From a virus, in the IMG/VR virus record IMGVR_UViG_3300025574_000085, positions 1-61,430 of that record: 61,430 bases of DNA. One strand, written 5' to 3'. A program made the position numbers and the translations under genes. Position 1 is the stretch's first letter; each line of letters starts with the position of its first letter. This document shows positions 4,349-57,386 of this stretch, one piece after another. A model generated the notes under the pieces. It saw only the letters and a program-made list of their open reading frames with translations. It was not told the origin of the DNA and did not search any database.

Positions 4349-4795
4349 TCACCACTCGCTGCCCATGGTCGCGCTCAGCAGCGCCGGCAGCGAGGCGGGG
4401 ACGGGACCTGGCTCCCATTTCGGCGGGCAGTCCCAGACCATCGTGGCGGCCTTGCGGACGAGGACGCGGGTGGGGTGCCTGCGGGGCAGCCGCCGCTTCT
4501 CCCGACGGGCGGTGTCGGCCTCGTCGAGCTGGCACAGGCGGCCACGGTCGCCTAGGTAGCCGACCTCGGCTTCGAGGAGGACGAGGGTCTTCTGCACCTG
4601 CCGCGTGCCCGGTGCGGCCTGTACCGGCGCCGGGAGCGCGGGTGGCGGTGAGGGGGTGGTGAGGTCGTGGCGGGGCCGCGGCGGGTTCTTCAGGAGGGTG
4701 ATCTCTGACCGGGTGAACGGGTGTGTGATGTCCCGCCGGACCGGGGCTTCGATGGCGAGGCGGTCGGCGTGCTGGCCGCGGTGGAAGAGGCTCAT
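4349..4795 (-). CDS. hypothetical protein (148 aa)
   Basis: I chose the ATG at 4795, which overlaps the previous stop as ATGA. The N-terminus reads MSLFHRGQHADRLAIEAPV and the middle is Pro-rich. A short charged segment then leads to a C-terminus with WDCPPKWEPG. No domain is recognised. Confidence 0.55.
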   Translation of the reverse strand: MSLFHRGQHADRLAIEAPVRRDITHPFTRSEITLLKNPPRPRHDLTTPSPPPALPAPVQAAPGTRQVQKTLVLLEAEVGYLGDRGRLCQLDEADTARREKRRLPRRHPTRVLVRKAATMVWDCPPKWEPGPVPASLPALLSATMGSEW

Positions 4796-5205
4796 GCGTG
4801 CCTCCCGGACCATGCCATCACCATGCGTGACCAGTCCGGATACCACTCGATCGCTGGCAGCGTGTGGAAAACGTTCTCGCGCGGGCCAACGATCACCAGG
4901 CGCTTGCCGAGCCCGAGCGCCAGCCCGAACTCGACGTGACGCCCGCCTTTCCCGCCGCCGCCCGCCGAGGTGAACGAGATCACCGTGTCGGCGGCTTCGA
5001 GGTCTTCGAGGTCGACGCGGGCGTACTTCGCGCACTCGTCCGGCTGGGCGTTCAGCTTCTCAGCGACGAACGACTCCAGCAGGTTCCCGCCGTGCTGATC
5101 GATCCAGCGGGAGGTGACCTCGTGGCCGAGCGCCTGGAGGACGTCGCGGACGCCCCGCATCTCGTCGTTCCGGCTGTAGCGGGCGGCTAGGTAGATCTTG
5201 CTCAT
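4792..5205 (-). CDS. nucleoside 2-deoxyribosyltransferase-like protein
   Basis: The 137-aa protein starts MSKIYLAARYSRNDEM, the typical first strand and loop of this fold. It has the E92 motif GRHVEFGLALGLGK, where the Glu is the expected nucleophile. Known enzymes exchange or cleave the base-deoxyribose bond. In phages such proteins may recycle nucleotides or sense nucleotide signals. AGGAG stands before the ATG at 5205. The fold assignment is good; the substrate cannot be told. Confidence 0.75.
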   Translation of the reverse strand: MSKIYLAARYSRNDEMRGVRDVLQALGHEVTSRWIDQHGGNLLESFVAEKLNAQPDECAKYARVDLEDLEAADTVISFTSAGGGGKGGRHVEFGLALGLGKRLVIVGPRENVFHTLPAIEWYPDWSRMVMAWSGRHA

Positions 5206-6070: not shown

Positions 6071-6313
6071 TCACGTTGTCCTGTTCTCCGGTTCGGCATG
6101 GATGGATGGGCCTGCGGTGGTGCGGGCCGCGCCTAACGGGCTCACCGCCCGTACGTCCGCGCCCCACGTCCCACGCGGCCCCAGCACCGGAATCCGCCGC
6201 CACACACTGGCCTCATGGGATGCCTCCCACCAGAACATCAGCGAGGCGCTTGAGAGCATCTGCCGCCCGTCCGGCGCGGTCAGCACGACCACCCACACCC
6301 GCCCGGCGCTCAC
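6071..6313 (-). CDS. hypothetical protein (80 aa)
   Basis: I place the start at the GTG at 6313, which overlaps the upstream stop (GTGA), as is usual in this operon. The protein has VWVVVLTAPDGRQM near its start and a Thr-rich end. No family is recognised. Confidence 0.5.
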   Translation of the reverse strand: MSAGRVWVVVLTAPDGRQMLSSASLMFWWEASHEASVWRRIPVLGPRGTWGADVRAVSPLGAARTTAGPSIHAEPENRTT

Positions 6314-51003: not shown

Positions 51004-52656
51004 CGGATTGTTACTCACTCATCACAGTAAGTGAGGCCAGGTCATTTCTGCCTGGCTCTGCATCTTTTCCATCGATGCAGACCGGACTATAACTTCACCT
51101 GCGGTGCACTGCCCCTATTGCACTCGGGGCAGGTCCCATAACACAGGTGCCACACGCTTAGTCTCTACGGAACCCTGAATGCGAGGTTTCCACGGTATTC
51201 CCCACGAACTCGGAGGGGTTCACCGTTACGGTGCGGTTTTCACTGACCGATCACTCGGTCAGGCGGCCAGTTCGAATTGACCGGCTTGCCCTGACGGAAG
51301 CGACGAACCAGAGCCCTTAACGAGGGGCTCGTAAATAAGACTAACCCCCACACGGTCGACCACTATGAACTGCCCGAAGTCGCCCATGACGGCTTCGAGG
51401 CTGCCGATGGAGGTGGTGCCGGACATGGTGGTGGACTCGTAGATCGGGGCGCCCAGCAGCGTCTCGGGCTGGCCTTTCCCCAAATTCGTCCAAAAACTCG
51501 CACCTCCAGCCGTGTCAAGCTGGCGGAACTTGTTGATAATCGCGACGTTCGCGACCCACGCGGCACCCGGCGCGTTGCGGAACCGCGGCGGCAGCGCGCC
51601 CTGGACGGCGTAGATGTCGCCGACCGCGATGACCAGCGTGGTCGCCGTGGTGACCACGGTGGTCGCGCCGGTGATGACGCCCGCCGGGACGCCGCCGGAA
51701 CCCGCGCCGGTCGCGAAGGCGGCCTCTTCCAGCCGGTCCTTCGCGTCTGCGAGAAGACGCGGGAGCTGCTGGCCGAAGTCGGTGTCCTCCAGCACTTCGT
51801 AGGAACCGAACACCCACGCCGCAGCCTTCTGCGGGGTGATCTGGACGTTCCCCACGGTTGGGGTGCTGTCGGTGGACGTCGTGCCTTCAGTGAGCCACGC
51901 CGCGCTGACACCGGCCGACGTGACGCCGTTCCACGTGTTGCTGGTCGTCTGCTTGACGTTGCTGATCCGCCGCCACGGGTTCGCGGAGCCGGTGTTGGTG
52001 AGGATGATCGTCGGGTCCAGCACGAACGGCAGCAGGTAGCCGCCGTTGGCCAGGGTCAGGGTCAGCGCGGCGCGCTGTGCCATTCCCTGCGGGTCTTCCA
52101 CGTAGGCGCGGAAGGTTTCCTGGTAGTCCTCGGAGCCGGTGAGCAGGATGTGCTCGGCGACGCCGCGGCCGTAGGTGCCGGGGTTCTCCTGGACCATGCG
52201 GGTGGCGTTCTCCGCGAAGTCCTGTGCCAGGTTTCCCCGCTTGGCCTCAAGCTCAACGGCGTCGAACGCGCGGCCGCGGAGCTCAGGGGTGCGGATCATG
52301 TGGGAGCGGACCGCGTCCGGGTCCTCGTACGGGTCCCGGTAGCGGCTGGTCACCAGGTCGGGGCTGCCGCCGCGGTACGGGGTGCCGCGGCGGGCGCTCC
52401 CGTTCCCGTTGCCGTTCCCGTCGCCGTCGGGCCGTTCGAGGTTGGCCTCGTCGTCGGTGGCTCGGGTGATGCCCCGGATCTTCTCCATCCGCTCGATGAT
52501 CGGCTTGGAGTCGGCGTCGAGCCCTTCCCACCGGTCCAGGAGGGTGTCGCGGTAGTTGCCGTCGTCCTCTTCGGTGACGGACTCGTCGGTCTCCATCCGC
52601 TGGAGTTCCTGCTTGATCCTCGCCATCTCGTCGAGGATGTCCTTCAGTGCGGTCAA
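50932..52656 (-). CDS. HK97-type major capsid protein, split by an intron
   Basis: The spliced product joins 52656-51280 (459 codons) to 51003-50932, giving about 482 aa. An N-terminal scaffold-like helix and a DPDGNG-rich linker (to about residue 120) come first, then the capsid core (GGYLLPFVLDPTIILTN, NTWNGVTSAGVSAAWLTEG, FGQFIVVDRVGVSLIYEP). Without splicing the frame would stop soon after QFELAA at 51259 and lack the conserved end. A TTG start at 52656 has GAGG upstream; an ATG at 52626 is possible. Confidence 0.8.
51004..51279 (-). ncRNA. group I self-splicing intron in the capsid gene
   Basis: On the minus strand the exon ends GCCGGT and the intron starts CAATTCGAAC. P1 forms between CGGTCA and TGGCCG with a U-G pair at the 5' splice site. 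P10 forms between GAACT and the start of exon 2, GGTTC. P7 is GACTA (51163-51159) with TAGTC (51089-51085). P8 is CTGCCCC/GGGGCAG and P9 is TCTGCATC/GATGCAGA; two more hairpins follow. The intron ends with G. It has no ORF. Confidence 0.78.
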
Positions 52657-52681
52657 GGGGGCCGCCTCACTTTCGGTCTGG

Positions 52682-53980
52682 TTACCAGACCAGCCCGGCC
52701 TTCTCCCGCGCGTCCTTGGCGCGGAGCACGTAGAGGGCGTGCTGGTGATACCGGGCCGAGTGCTCGCCGCCGTCAGGCGTGAGCGGGTCGCCGGGGGCGG
52801 GTCCCTCATCGGGGGGAGTGCCGGGGTCTTGCTCCTCGTCCGGGTCCGGGCTCCAGGAGCCGGGAGTGGACATACGGACGCCGAGGATCTCGGCGCCCGT
52901 GTAGGCGGGCCACAGCACCGGGCCGTAGTCCCGCAGGCCCAGTTCGGTGCGGCGCACCACCGGGAGTTCACCGCCGCGCGGGCGGTACTTGTCACCCATC
53001 CGCAGCTGCGGATCGGATCGCATGATCCCGCCGACGAACGACTGCGCGGTGATCGCGCCGCTGCGGATGTTCTCCAGCACCTCATCGGCCAGCGGGGTCT
53101 CGCTGTAGCGGGTGCGGGTCAGCACTCCCCGCGCCTCCGCGCGGATGCCGTCCTCGACGGGGACGCCGATTGGCATGGAGAACCGGTCGGACGGGTTTCC
53201 GGCCAGGTCCCGGCCGTGGTTCCACAGGACCTTCACTGAGGCGGGGAAACCGCCGCGGGACCGCTGCGCGTGGTCGATCGCGCGGTTGAACGCGCCCGGG
53301 TCGATCGTCTCCAGGTAATGGCCCTGGTGGTCCTGGATCTCGGCTTCCTGGTTGAATACCGCCGCGTACGCCTCGACGGTGCGGCCGTCGCCGCCGTCCG
53401 CGGAGCGCAGGATGTGGATGTCCTCCAGCGGGTAGATCCGCATGAACTCCGCGCGGGACGCTGGCTTGCTGTCATCGCTGCTCACATCAACTCCGAGCCT
53501 CTTAGCCGCAGCTTTTATCTTCGGCATGGCCTTGTCACCGAACGGGGACTGCGGGGCGCGGCCGAGCGCGTCGCGGACGTGCGCGGCGTCGTGGACCGGG
53601 AAGTGCCGCAGCGAGCGGGGGACCGTCCGGCCGGAGCCGTCCTTGGTGCCGCCGGGCTCGATATGGGCGAACGCGCTGTCGGGCAGGTTGTTGACGCTCG
53701 CGGAGGCCATCTCCGCGCGCTCCGCTGTTGCCGTCACCAATGACCTCCCGGTCGCCTTCTTGTCCATTGCCGCGTGCTGCGCCGGGTACATGCCGGTAGC
53801 GGCCTTGTGCGCCAGATTGCAGTAGCCCTCGGCGTCGTCGATGTACTTGCCCAGGTGCTCGACGCACCGGGCGAAGTCCGACGGCTCGCCCCAGCGGATC
53901 TTCGCGGCGCCCTCGCCGTGCACCCAGTAGGCGTGCAGCCGCTCGGTGTCCCCCGGATGAGCTGCAGCGCCGCCTGCCAT
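52682..53980 (-). CDS. HK97-family prohead protease with N-terminal extension
   Basis: The 432-aa protein has a first domain (residues 20-170) with SFAHIEPGGTKDGSGRTVPR, then HFPVHDAAHVRDALGR, as seen in other actinophage proteases (DUF6582-like). The second is a U35 protease: RTVEAYAAVFNQEAEIQDHQ, LETIDPGAFNRAI and VKVLWNHGRDLAGNP. It should cut the capsid protein during maturation. The start overlaps the upstream stop (TGATG). Confidence 0.8.
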   Translation of the reverse strand: MAGGAAAHPGDTERLHAYWVHGEGAAKIRWGEPSDFARCVEHLGKYIDDAEGYCNLAHKAATGMYPAQHAAMDKKATGRSLVTATAERAEMASASVNNLPDSAFAHIEPGGTKDGSGRTVPRSLRHFPVHDAAHVRDALGRAPQSPFGDKAMPKIKAAAKRLGVDVSSDDSKPASRAEFMRIYPLEDIHILRSADGGDGRTVEAYAAVFNQEAEIQDHQGHYLETIDPGAFNRAIDHAQRSRGGFPASVKVLWNHGRDLAGNPSDRFSMPIGVPVEDGIRAEARGVLTRTRYSETPLADEVLENIRSGAITAQSFVGGIMRSDPQLRMGDKYRPRGGELPVVRRTELGLRDYGPVLWPAYTGAEILGVRMSTPGSWSPDPDEEQDPGTPPDEGPAPGDPLTPDGGEHSARYHQHALYVLRAKDAREKAGLVW

Positions 53981-54462
53981 CAGAGCTTCCCGGCCTGTGC
54001 GACCAGCGCCCGGGCATTGGACAGCAGGACGTGGATCTGGTGCTGCAGGTGGGCCACGTGCGCCTTGTGCGCCGACAGCTTGTGCTTCGTGGTGGCGGCC
54101 TTCTTGTGCGCGGTGACGGCCTTTTTCACCGTGGTCGCCTTCTTCGCCGCCGTGGTCGCCTTCTTCGCCGCTGTGGTGTGCGCGGCCGTCTGCTTCTGCA
54201 CCGTGGCCAGCTGGGCCATCAGCGTGTGCGCCTGGGCGCGGAGCGCGGCGGCCTGCGCGAGCAGCTGCGCCTTGCGGGCTGCGTTCGGATTGGCCGCGCT
54301 CTTGCCGCCGCCGGTGCCGCCCGTGGCCGCGCTGCCGCCGCCGCCGCTGGAGGACGCGAACTGGCCGCCGGTGGGGCCGCCGGCCGCGGCGTGGGTCATG
54401 TTGAACCGCTGCGCGCCCGCCGCCCACTCACCAGCCCAGCGGGATGACCACGAGTCAGGCAT
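53980..54462 (-). CDS. Lys/Ala-rich coiled-coil head protein (160 aa)
   Basis: The start has THAAAGGPTGGQFASS, a motif common near the portal/protease genes of actinophages. The rest is an Ala-rich helix with histone-like K-A-A-K repeats (AAKKATTAAKKATTVKKA). It lies directly before the protease and may bind DNA or scaffold the head. It is divergent from the pentamer-repeat cassette. Confidence 0.55.
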   Translation of the reverse strand: MPDSWSSRWAGEWAAGAQRFNMTHAAAGGPTGGQFASSSGGGGSAATGGTGGGKSAANPNAARKAQLLAQAAALRAQAHTLMAQLATVQKQTAAHTTAAKKATTAAKKATTVKKAVTAHKKAATTKHKLSAHKAHVAHLQHQIHVLLSNARALVAQAGKL

Positions 54463-54516: not shown

Positions 54517-54591
54517 AGCCCAGCGGAGCTGAGCCAAGCCCAGCCCGGCATGGCATAGCGGAGCTGAGCCAAGCAGAGCAGAGCACAGTCC
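54517..54591 (+). repeat. AGCNN pentanucleotide array 1 (15 units)
   Basis: The 75 bp consist of 15 units of 5 bp, nearly all AGC followed by two variable bases; two units are GGCAT and one is AGTCC. The block AGCGG AGCTG AGCCA occurs twice, 35 bp apart. It lies just before the RAMP-like gene and ends 16 bp before its ATG. Confidence 0.85.
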
Positions 54592-54607
54592 CCACGGAAG
54601 GAACCCG

Positions 54608-55216
54608 ATGCGAACCGAGACCAAGGCACGGCTGGAGCTGACCGGCGTGACGCCGCTCGTCGTCAACAACGCCCAGCTCGCCGACCCGACGAACGACTAT
54701 GCGATGAAGATCAGGACCATCACCGATAAGGGCATCAAGATGACTCCCGAGGAGCGCGAGCAGAAGGAAGCGCTCCAGTGGGCTGGAAGTCTCTACGTCG
54801 CCGACGACGGCCACCTGGTCTTCCCCGGCCGGAACTTCATCCGCGCGTTCCGCGACGTCGCGCCTGCGTTCAAGTCGGGCGCGGACATCGACCGCGGCGG
54901 CGTCATGATCGCCGAGACCGAGGTGGACATTCAGCACGACGGCCCGGCCGACCGCCGCGAGCTATGGGAGAACCCGCGTTACCGGTTCCGCACTGTCGTC
55001 AACGGCAATCCGACCAAGGGGCCGAAGGGCGGCAAGGTCGTATCGATGCGGCCGGTGTTCCCCGTCTGGGCGATGACGGTCAACGTCGTCGTGTTCGCGG
55101 ACATCCTCGGCTGGGACAAGTTCGAGCTGATCATCGACGCGGCCGGAGCGCAGGGCATCGGCAACGCCCGCAAGCTCGGCTACGGCCGGTTCACCGCCAA
55201 GGTCACCAAGCTCTAA
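54608..55216 (+). CDS. RAMP/Cas7-like protein of unknown function
   Basis: The 202-aa protein starts with a beta strand and LTGVTPLVVNNAQLADP, has an LVFPGRNFIRAFRDVA segment (residues 70-85, like the IPGSSLKG helix of Cas7/Csm3 proteins), and ends with a glycine-rich loop GIGNARKLGYGRF (183-195) that recalls the RAMP signature. Related phage proteins are known to me, but no function is. GGAAGGAA stands before the ATG. It is plus-strand, between two pentamer arrays, and reversed to the head operon. Confidence 0.6.
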   Translation: MRTETKARLELTGVTPLVVNNAQLADPTNDYAMKIRTITDKGIKMTPEEREQKEALQWAGSLYVADDGHLVFPGRNFIRAFRDVAPAFKSGADIDRGGVMIAETEVDIQHDGPADRRELWENPRYRFRTVVNGNPTKGPKGGKVVSMRPVFPVWAMTVNVVVFADILGWDKFELIIDAAGAQGIGNARKLGYGRFTAKVTKL

Positions 55217-55222
55217 AGCCGT

Positions 55223-55357
55223 AGCCCAGCTAAGCCCAGCGCAGCCCAGCTAAGCGGAGCCGAGCGAAGCACAGCACAGCGAAGCAAAGCAGGGCGCAGC
55301 GGAGCGCAGCTTGGCGTAGCACAGTGCAGCGGAGCTAAGCCCAGCAGAGCACAGCAC
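55223..55357 (+). repeat. AGCNN pentanucleotide array 2 (27 units)
   Basis: After the stop of the RAMP-like gene and one 6-bp unit (AGCCGT), 27 units of 5 bp run in perfect phase to 55357. Almost all are AGCNN; two are GGCNN and one is AGTNN. It ends AGCAG AGCAC AGCAC, just before the ribosome site of the next gene. Confidence 0.88.
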
Positions 55358-55368
55358 AGAAAGGATTC

Positions 55369-55881
55369 ATGATGAGCCCCTTCCCCCCGAAAGGGTCACG
55401 GGCGCTGCGGATCATCGTCACGGAGATGGCAGCCGCCGCCGAGTACGGCGACGTGCTGACCTTCACCGAACTGGCGCAGGCCATCGAAGCCGAGGACGAC
55501 GACGCCGGCCACGCGCAAGTCAGGCAGGTTGTCAGCGCCGCCCGGCCCCTGCTCCTCGCCGACCACGGCCGCGCGCTGGTCGCCGTCCGCGGCAAGGGCT
55601 ACCGCGTCGCACTGCCCGGCGAGATGGCCGGGATAGCGCAGGATCACCGGCGGCGGGCCGACCGGCAGGTCGGCAAAGCCCTCGCCGTAATCGACCAGGC
55701 CGACATGACCGCCGCGACCGATGAGGAACGCCAACGGTTCCAGGCGGTCGGCGTCGTCATCCGCAACCTGCACTCACGCATGACATCGGCTGAACAGCGC
55801 CTCGCCGACCTTGAAGACGCCGTATTCGGCCAGAAGCCGCGTCAGAAGGTCATCCCCGGCGAGGTCGAGAAAGAGAACTGA
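55369..55881 (+). CDS. winged-helix protein of the pentamer-repeat cassette
   Basis: The protein (170 aa from the ATG at 55369, or 169 aa from 55372) has a winged helix: TFTELAQAIEA, then a recognition helix, then the wing ALVAVRGKGYRVALPG. A basic helix (QDHRRRADRQVGKALA) and a C-terminal coiled coil follow. It is probably a DNA- or RNA-binding regulator. AAAGGATTC precedes its start. It is flanked by arrays 2 and 3. Confidence 0.65.
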   Translation: MMSPFPPKGSRALRIIVTEMAAAAEYGDVLTFTELAQAIEAEDDDAGHAQVRQVVSAARPLLLADHGRALVAVRGKGYRVALPGEMAGIAQDHRRRADRQVGKALAVIDQADMTAATDEERQRFQAVGVVIRNLHSRMTSAEQRLADLEDAVFGQKPRQKVIPGEVEKEN

Positions 55882-55892
55882 GCGGAACTCTC

Positions 55893-55962
55893 AGCACAGC
55901 TCAGCCCAGCGGAGCGAAGCGGAGCGGAGCAAAGCCAGGCACAGCCGAGCCCAGCACAGCAC
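55893..55962 (+). repeat. AGCNN pentanucleotide array 3 (14 units)
   Basis: Fourteen 5-bp units (AGCAC, AGCTC, AGCCC, AGCGG and so on, with one GGCAC) run from just after the winged-helix gene to 6 bp before the portal stop. It ends AGCCC AGCAC AGCAC, close to the end of array 2. Confidence 0.85.
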
Positions 55963-55967
55963 AGGTT

Positions 55968-57386
55968 TCACGGTCGGCCATTCAGCGCACGCCGCGCACT
56001 GGCTGGCCGCGGCGTCGGCCTCGTCCCGTTCCCGCCATCACCAGGACTGGTGCTGCCGACCGGCAGGCGGGGCATTGACGGCGGCAGGGGGTCGGCGGTC
56101 GCGCCCGGCTGGCCGGGCTGCGGCAGAAGATGCTGCACGTTCCCGGCCGGGAGCTGGGGCGGGACGTCAGCCACCTTCAGCTGGCCCATGTCACCCGCCT
56201 CGATCGCGTCGACCGCGCTCATCTTGTCGTACCCGGCCTGGCCGAGGGCCAGGAGAGCCTGCGCGCGGATCAGGGTCACCTGCGCCCGGACCTGCTCACC
56301 GTCCTGCAGCGCCGCGATGCTGGAGGTGTCCACCCACAGCCGGGACCCGGTGGGCAGATCCGGGACAAGAGGCTCCAGCGCCCCGCACAGCGACCGCCAC
56401 AACGGCCGCAGCGTCAGGTCACCGAAACGGCGGATCACTTCCTGATACGACTTCCCGGCGCCCTTGATGGACTCCAGGCCGATCAGCAGCGGCGGCACAC
56501 CGGCGGCGGCCAGAATGCGCTCGATGCCCAGCCCCATGACGCTCGTGAAATCGATCTGCTGCATGCTGTTGCCGACCGCTACCAGGTCCGCGCCCTGGTC
56601 CAGGATCAGGGTCTTGCCCGCGTTGGTCGTGCCGCCGTAGCGGGCGGACATCCGCTCCCGGATCGAATCCACCGTGCCCGGCTGAAGCTTCTGCGCGTAC
56701 TTGATGACCAGGTTCGGGGTTGCGTTGGCATCCAGGTAGCGGATCTTGTACTGGGCCATCCCGTCGTCGCCCTGAATGTCCCGCATCACCGGGGTCAGCC
56801 AGGACATGCCGCGGAAGTCGGCCTGCGGGTCCGGGATAGGCGCCCAGTGGGCCACCTCGGCGGCCTGGTACAGCTGGCCCTTGCCCCGGTCCAGGACGCT
56901 CTTCGGCGGTTCCACCCAGTAGCCGACCTTGCGGCGGTACTGGCCGCCGCCGGGCACCTGGACCAGCTCGGAGATGATCGTGGTCCAGTCGGGGCGCAGC
57001 CGGACCAGCACGTCCTCGCCAGGGGGTGCCCAGGTGTAGGAATTGCCGGCCACGCTGGCGTCCTGCTCACAGCGGGCGATCAGCTCACCGGAGGTCGAGT
57101 CCGGGCCCCACGGATGCTCCAGTACCGCCAGGGACTGGTTGCCGTACAGGTGCTTGTCATCCTTGGCCTGGAACTGGAACTGCGCTTCGGACAGCAGCAT
57201 CATCCGGACGAGGATCGCGGAGAACACCGGGGAATCGGATGCGTTGGCCTGCTGCGCCCACCCGGAAATCTGCGGCAGGATCGACTCACGGTCCGGGCTG
57301 CCGTACGTGGTCGTCAGGACCGCCGCGCCGCTCGCCTGGCCCTCAAAGAAGCCGCTCCGCGAGAGCAGGCGGTCAAGGAGCCTCAC
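55968..57386 (-). CDS. portal protein (HK97 family)
   Basis: This 472-aa protein has the HK97-type portal pattern: SGWAQQANASDSPVFSAILV, LEHPWGPDSTSGELIARCEQ, the MSWLTPVMRDI motif and MGLGIERILAAAGVPPLLIG. It ends in a Pro/Gly-rich tail. A GTG start at 57386 overlaps the upstream stop (GTGA). It forms the DNA entry ring. Confidence 0.87.
   Translation of the reverse strand: MRLLDRLLSRSGFFEGQASGAAVLTTTYGSPDRESILPQISGWAQQANASDSPVFSAILVRMMLLSEAQFQFQAKDDKHLYGNQSLAVLEHPWGPDSTSGELIARCEQDASVAGNSYTWAPPGEDVLVRLRPDWTTIISELVQVPGGGQYRRKVGYWVEPPKSVLDRGKGQLYQAAEVAHWAPIPDPQADFRGMSWLTPVMRDIQGDDGMAQYKIRYLDANATPNLVIKYAQKLQPGTVDSIRERMSARYGGTTNAGKTLILDQGADLVAVGNSMQQIDFTSVMGLGIERILAAAGVPPLLIGLESIKGAGKSYQEVIRRFGDLTLRPLWRSLCGALEPLVPDLPTGSRLWVDTSSIAALQDGEQVRAQVTLIRAQALLALGQAGYDKMSAVDAIEAGDMGQLKVADVPPQLPAGNVQHLLPQPGQPGATADPLPPSMPRLPVGSTSPGDGGNGTRPTPRPASARRALNGRP

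Follow-up and report, generated by a model that had tools for sequence, protein, structure and literature searches.

A two-gene phage cassette with AGC-type pentad arrays as a probable member of the VIPR systems

VIPR and comparable systems

VIPR (Viral Interference Programmable Repeat) was described in a preprint of April 2026, with phage SUSP1 and a Pseudomonas fulva prophage among the examples and with PDB entry 36pp (PMC13142463). In the preprint, VIPR consists of a small ancestral RAMP encoded by phages and built on an RRM core with a G-loop (Vipr), an accessory gene named vap, and vrRNAs in which 9–16 GGY/NN pentads are followed by an invariable 3' tail. Double-stranded DNA is recognized through pairing with the NN letters, one base of the target being passed over at each step, and in types II, VI, and VII the vap product is predicted to bind DNA (PMC13142463). 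The abstract gives the fixed triplet as GGY, the preprint also allowing "a related consensus," and the system is proposed to represent RNA-guided DNA recognition that predates CRISPR (PMC13142463).

Here we consider a cassette carried on an IMG/VR virus record, 61,430 bases long (the whole analyzed stretch is referred to as the window). With a probability of about 0.94, it is a VIPR system carried by a phage and belonging to a branch with an AGC consensus, and its arrays are vrRNA guides, one of them aimed at the portal genes of kin phages; the arrays are read as guides because gene 1 is a predicted vipr gene and gene 2 is vap-like. The earlier note on this DNA knew of no described system of this form, a statement overtaken by the preprint (PMC13142463): the cassette is a functional-looking member, in an AGC dialect, of the kind described there.

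The cassette shares with VIPR the minimal two-gene phage locus encoding a Vipr RAMP and a predicted DNA-binding Vap, pentad repeats with hypervariable NN in flanking non-coding stretches, the one-nucleotide skip at the wobble base, and competing-phage targets on both gene strands. It differs in the triplet, AGC (RGY) versus GGY, and possibly belongs to the "related consensus" cases of the preprint: the triplet/NN form of vrRNA is present as RGYNN, whereas strict GGY is not, only five of 56 units starting with G. Further differences are the placement of the arrays, which form the leaders of both genes and a trailer, the lack of an observed hairpin or pseudoknot tail, and the decoded targets, which in sister phages are the genes for the terminase, portal, and capsid, compared to satellites or lysogeny regulators in the preprint.

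The Csm3/Cas7 proteins of type III CRISPR systems are similar to the product of gene 1 in the fold and the G-loop, and are RNA-coating filament proteins, as is proposed for gene 1. The cassette differs from these systems in having a single small RRM protein, no CRISPR array, and a 5-nt pentad code, while the spacer of type III guides is contiguous, every sixth base being flipped. One more comparable case is TRAP, whose sites are (G/U)AG triplets with 2-nt spacers, about 11 repeats on RNA. The likeness lies in the triplet followed by two free bases and repeated on RNA, and the difference, in the unrelated protein and in the free bases, which in TRAP sites hold no target information.

Genes and arrays of the cassette

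One array precedes gene 1, one separates the two genes, and one follows gene 2, all three being directed in the same way as both genes (Table 1). Three in-phase arrays of 15, 27, and 14 units around two plus-strand genes had been listed in the earlier note, and are present as described; the orientation of the cassette, with the arrays running along the genes and opposite to the head genes, is also confirmed by the flanking head genes on the other strand. The description of the unit as a nearly fixed AGC, with GGC and AGT as rare variants, followed by two variable bases, agrees with the per-position counts over 56 units: A in 51 and G in five at position 1, G in all 56 at position 2, C in 54 and T in two at position 3, and no constraint at positions 4–5. 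The window motif is R-G-Y-N-N, with AGC strongly preferred.

Table 1. Features of the cassette and its surroundings (window coordinates).
Feature	Coordinates	Strand	Description
Major head protein gene	51259-53085	-	neighbor of the cassette
Upstream vrRNA array (proposed)	54517-54591	+	15 RGYNN units; directly 5' of vipr
Gene 1, predicted vipr	54608..55216	+	202 aa, ATG start; phrog_4652; single-RRM RAMP with G-loop GIGNARKLGYGRF
Middle vrRNA array (proposed)	55223-55359 (units to 55357)	+	27 RGYNN units + AG; between vipr and vap
Gene 2, vap-like accessory gene (candidate)	55369..55881	+	170 aa; phrog_5926
Downstream vrRNA array (proposed)	55893-55964 (units to 55962)	+	14 RGYNN units + AG
Portal gene	55968-57386	-	neighbor of the cassette
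Phage's own version of the target site	56012..56052 (ends approximate)	-	3' end of the portal gene

The longest AGCNN run consists of 14 units and the longest RGYNN run, of 27, whereas 60 shuffles of the entire window that preserved dinucleotides gave at most three and five units, respectively, and no comparable runs were found elsewhere in the window when either strand was scanned. The NN entropy of the arrays is 2.75–3.23 bits, with the triplet nearly fixed.

In the upstream array, 13 units start with A and two with G, the final unit is AGTCC, and the guide letters are CC GG TG CA CC CC AT AT GG TG CA AG AG AC CC. The middle array may represent one long guide or two overlapping guides. The array ends, said in the earlier note to be alike (AGCAC-AG), indeed coincide in the middle and downstream arrays (...AGCAC AGCAC AG), but not in the upstream one, which ends with AGCAG AGCAC AGTCC. 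The claim of little self-pairing was only partly right, as folding of the upstream and middle arrays is slightly more stable than that of shuffled sequences, with z close to –2 (z-scores over the three arrays, –2.2, –2.0, and –0.9). No structured 3' tail, either hairpin or pseudoknot, was found on the window arrays.

Gene 1, judged by profile searches and a structural model, encodes a predicted Vipr protein of the RAMP fold. A profile of 24 homologues matches PDB 36pp_D, the SUSP1 Vipr protein, with E=3.9e-44, type III Csm5 RAMPs being far behind in the same search, and the window protein alone matches 36pp_D with E=2.6e-5 over positions 8–199, that is, nearly the whole length. The AlphaFold model (pLDDT 92, pTM 0.86) resembles the backbone RAMPs Csm3/Cas7 (Foldseek E 4.5e-7; Z up to 11.7); 36pp, found by the sequence search, is absent among the fold-search matches listed (entries up to April 2026). 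Invariant in the family are R148 and W154, as well as R188 and G193 of the G-loop, with the loop residue G183 nearly so. No matching model for gene 1 was found in PADLOC or Pfam. The earlier suggestion of a protein coating the array RNA with one subunit per 5 nt came close to this assignment, gene 1 being a predicted RAMP-fold Vipr and the Vipr of VIPR binding pentad RNA (PMC13142463), but it missed the NN payload as a non-contiguous guide.

Gene 2 stands next to vipr, as vap does in VIPR. Its model, of modest confidence (pLDDT 78), features an N-terminal winged helix and long C-terminal helices, the N-terminus also having a weak match to Trans_reg_C, and although the winged-helix matches are weak, the product may be considered a Vap-like winged-helix protein and a candidate for DNA binding. 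Homologues of gene 2 adjoin vipr in wV8 (a Felix-O1-like Escherichia phage), LittleE, Trine, MakoManhole, BWHA-1, and Medea1.

Related loci in other phages

When IMG/VR was scanned for ten AGC triplets in phase, with protein information left aside, 81 stretches were obtained, some of them perfect microsatellites and many with free NN. Gene-1 relatives are seen by plain tblastn in seven of these stretches, down to 27% identity, and by iterated HMM searches 36 loci have a member of the gene-1 family and 18, of the gene-2 family, the window and protein-retrieved loci being included in these counts. The array-linked gene-1 homologues are only about 20–30% identical.

Retrieval by gene 1 alone leads to GGCNN/GGTNN period-5 tracts beside the gene pair in Trine, MakoManhole, LittleE, wV8, BWHA-1, and Medea1 (in Medea1 and BWHA-1 the tracts are below the scan threshold and were read by eye), and therefore the general motif is RGYNN. 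These in-phase tracts in six protein-retrieved lineages bear out the linkage between the arrays and the gene pair, on whose absence in other phages the earlier note would have let the idea of a linked function fall. In a tree of 30 Vipr proteins, every main branch includes AGC loci, and the six GGY phages lie in a single part; the AGC loci were gathered by the AGC pattern, so the triplet frequencies in this tree carry no meaning.

The organization of the arrays varies among these loci. Many vrRNA-like blocks of 8–11 AGCNN units are observed in L097 (900-2990), L052 (208-1800), and L022 (6514-7090), with short constant strings as separators, GGCAGGC in L097 and AACTGGC in L052; in L097 the blocks are located on both sides of vipr, and one of them is duplicated (2653-2712 and 2899-2958). 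In actinophage VIPR loci (Trine, MakoManhole, LittleE, BWHA-1) tRNA-like minihelices stand between the GGYNN arrays (L101 5575-5830, L102 1660-1700 and 2990-3170, L103 4730-4950 and 6170-6420, L106 4840-4910); these minihelices consist of a T-arm GGTTCGANTCC and an apparent short acceptor stem, with no anticodon arm. Five of the six pairs in the T-stem show compensatory changes, and no tRNA is called by Rfam at these positions. The minihelices, absent from the main text of the preprint (PMC13142463), are possibly RNase P/Z processing signals. Over the array loci in general, Rfam identifies no RNA family except one ordinary tRNA in L052.

In wV8 (L105) the annotated direct repeat DR_4 (4744-4801 and 6137-6194) flanks the Vipr/Vap pair and overlaps or abuts the GGTNN arrays, and therefore is probably a part of vrRNA genes. 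One more Vipr/Vap pair, in L124 (8320-9930, minus strand), lies upstream of a related portal gene and has C-rich period-5 tracts (CCYNN-like) with repeated CTCACCTAACGCTC ends in place of RGYNN; no credible target was found for these tracts.

Candidate targets and possible function

Read as NNx, the downstream array yields T S P G D/E G G N/K H/Q T R P, which recalls the C-terminus of the portal protein encoded by the phage itself (STSPGDGGNGTRPTP). Units 1–10 with a 1-nt skip (20 fixed letters) match exactly three contigs in IMG/VR, and the same units in the reversed order match none. All three matches fall in the homologous C-terminus of portal genes 61–65% identical to that of the window; the motif TSPGDGGN.TRP is conserved among portals, and hence the three are not independent events. 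The match extends to 12 of 12 units and 24 of 24 letters in L125, and to 23 of 24 letters in L126 and L127. Scored over 308 kb of portal-relatives, the array reaches 24.0 with the 1-nt skip, whereas skips 0, 2, 3, and 4 yield 10.5–12.5, and the best among 60 shuffles of the units yields 17.5. In targets with the frame set the skipped base is codon position 3, that is, the wobble base (for L125 this placement follows by arithmetic on the portal frame). The VIPR mode of targeting, with NN read at a 1-nt skip over the wobble base, is thus seen here as a sequence match, and we consider downstream units 1–12 to be a putative guide directed at portal genes in related phages. Units 13–14 (AGCAC AGCAC AG) look like a fixed 3' end, because they mismatch L125 and are shared with other arrays, this ending being common to several arrays and lying outside the target match.

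The closest sibling of the cassette is L098/L076, with gene 1 92% identical to that of the window, and with longer arrays of mostly different NN content. In the same 308 kb of portal-relatives skip 1 gives its three arrays scores of 20, 22, and 24, while other skips give at most 14.5; all three skip-1 scores exceed every shuffle, that of the upstream array barely so (20.0 versus 19.5). Their targets, in the same kin group, are the genes of the major head protein (antisense), the terminase large subunit (antisense), and the portal (sense); this matching of both gene strands favors DNA as the target. Among the 13 downstream units aligned between the window and L098, R has changed three times, NN in one of 26 letters, and G and Y never, and the lone NN change, CG to AG, fits the AGG codon of L126/L127. 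These counts, though small, fit NN as the payload.

A 1-nt-skip match to genes of kin phages is observed for one of the three window arrays, compared to all three in the sibling. The upstream array has no exact 9-unit match in IMG/VR and no match with up to three mismatches in 22 whole related records, and no convincing target for the middle array emerged from the same kinds of search. A tail-fibre-like gene in L128 (8150-8250, minus strand), a contig with no homology to the window, matches middle-array units 12–22 (11 units exact, 22 of 22 letters, 1-nt skip), but it was not accepted as a target, as the match may be due to chance. A partial middle-array match in L120 is antisense, lies in a 55-aa ORF, and looks like chance. 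No convincing target was found for the arrays of L099.

The carriers' own portals match their guides less completely, at 19 of 24 NN letters in the window and at 20 of 24 for the portal of L076 with the L098 guide, while the best VIPR-less relatives reach 22–24 and others, 18–21. The lower self match fits self-avoidance, but could also be explained by ordinary divergence.

The first lead was a TRAP-like mechanism, with the arrays being RNA leaders, bound by a ring or filament of the gene-1 protein that controls translation of both genes, and NN being mere spacers. Its anatomy is the same as that of TRAP sites, and arrays directly precede both start codons. It was dropped after gene 1 proved to be a RAMP and NN were decoded to portal codons, and now seems very improbable: gene 1 matches Vipr/Csm3 over the full length and not the TRAP (MtrB) fold, the third array stands after the last gene, and NN, more conserved than the R position between the window and L098, spell portal codons, the exact 12-unit match also being unfavorable to spacers. 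Even less is to be said for a class 1 CRISPR remnant, or a CRISPR-like array with contiguous spacers, suggested by the RAMP fold of gene 1 and by the adjoining repeats, since the locus has only two genes and 5-bp units in place of the long repeat/spacer structure of class 1, its scanned neighbors are head genes with no recognized cas gene among them, and the target match is non-contiguous, skip 0 giving only background.

The strict 5-bp phase and the candidate winged-helix protein would also suit an iteron or DNA-coating array, bound as double-stranded AGCNN DNA every half turn for partitioning, replication, or silencing. We regard this as hardly credible, given that NN hold target information and that arrays of relatives are split by RNA-type separators with compensatory changes in the T-stem. 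As for a neutral microsatellite, perfect AGCNN microsatellites do exist in viral contigs (many scan stretches have NN entropy near 0), but the entropy of the window arrays with their near-fixed triplet is the opposite of slippage, and the linkage to a protein family across distant homologues, together with the target match, refutes this explanation, leaving it a negligible probability.

Under the VIPR reading we infer transcription, RNP formation, DNA binding, and repression from the published system (PMC13142463). Each array would be transcribed into a vrRNA, successive Vipr (RAMP) subunits would hold the fixed RGY triplets, one per pentad, and the NN dinucleotides would pair with double-stranded DNA in a one-base-skip code (target = NNx NNx NNx ...) (PMC13142463). 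The portal gene of competitors within the kin group would be the target of the downstream vrRNA, whose binding, with the winged-helix Vap presumably helping on DNA, would silence this gene in a co-infecting or resident rival. Skipping the wobble position would allow one guide to cover many synonymous variants, and the carrier's own portal, which differs at several NN letters, may be partly spared. More tentatively, and at somewhat less than even odds, the cassette may represent an AGC-coded VIPR branch outside the main text of the preprint, in which sister phages are armed against each other's virion genes, their own genes drifting out of the guide range; Vipr lineages would have switched the fixed triplet, so the triplet would be an evolvable RAMP-read code (AGC, GGY, and possibly C-rich in L124). 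The cassette, which was first noticed in the raw sequence, is an independent natural case supporting the two-out-of-three reading rule of VIPR and extending it to AGC-type repeats in actinobacteriophage-like genomes, and the guide–target pairs (portal, terminase, capsid) could be used for testing inter-phage warfare and self-avoidance.

The cassette, carried as in VIPR by a phage (here, a virus record), occupies a site between the portal gene and the next head gene, where the interval is about 8 bp in L118 and about 1.7 kb, with the cassette, in L076. Within the stretches examined, gene 1 is present only in the window, L076/L098, and L124 among the portal-relatives. Searches of genome contigs with Vipr and the portal found no relative, and the portal relatives seen among collected phages, with identities below 60%, come mostly from phages of Gordonia, Mycobacterium, and Rhodococcus, hence only the wording "actinobacteriophage-like"; these portal relatives suggest an actinobacterial host. 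The minus-strand gene adjoining the cassette contains 21-bp tandem repeats (54129-54177, 96% matching), which encode an Ala/Lys/Thr-rich repeat (TTAAKKA).
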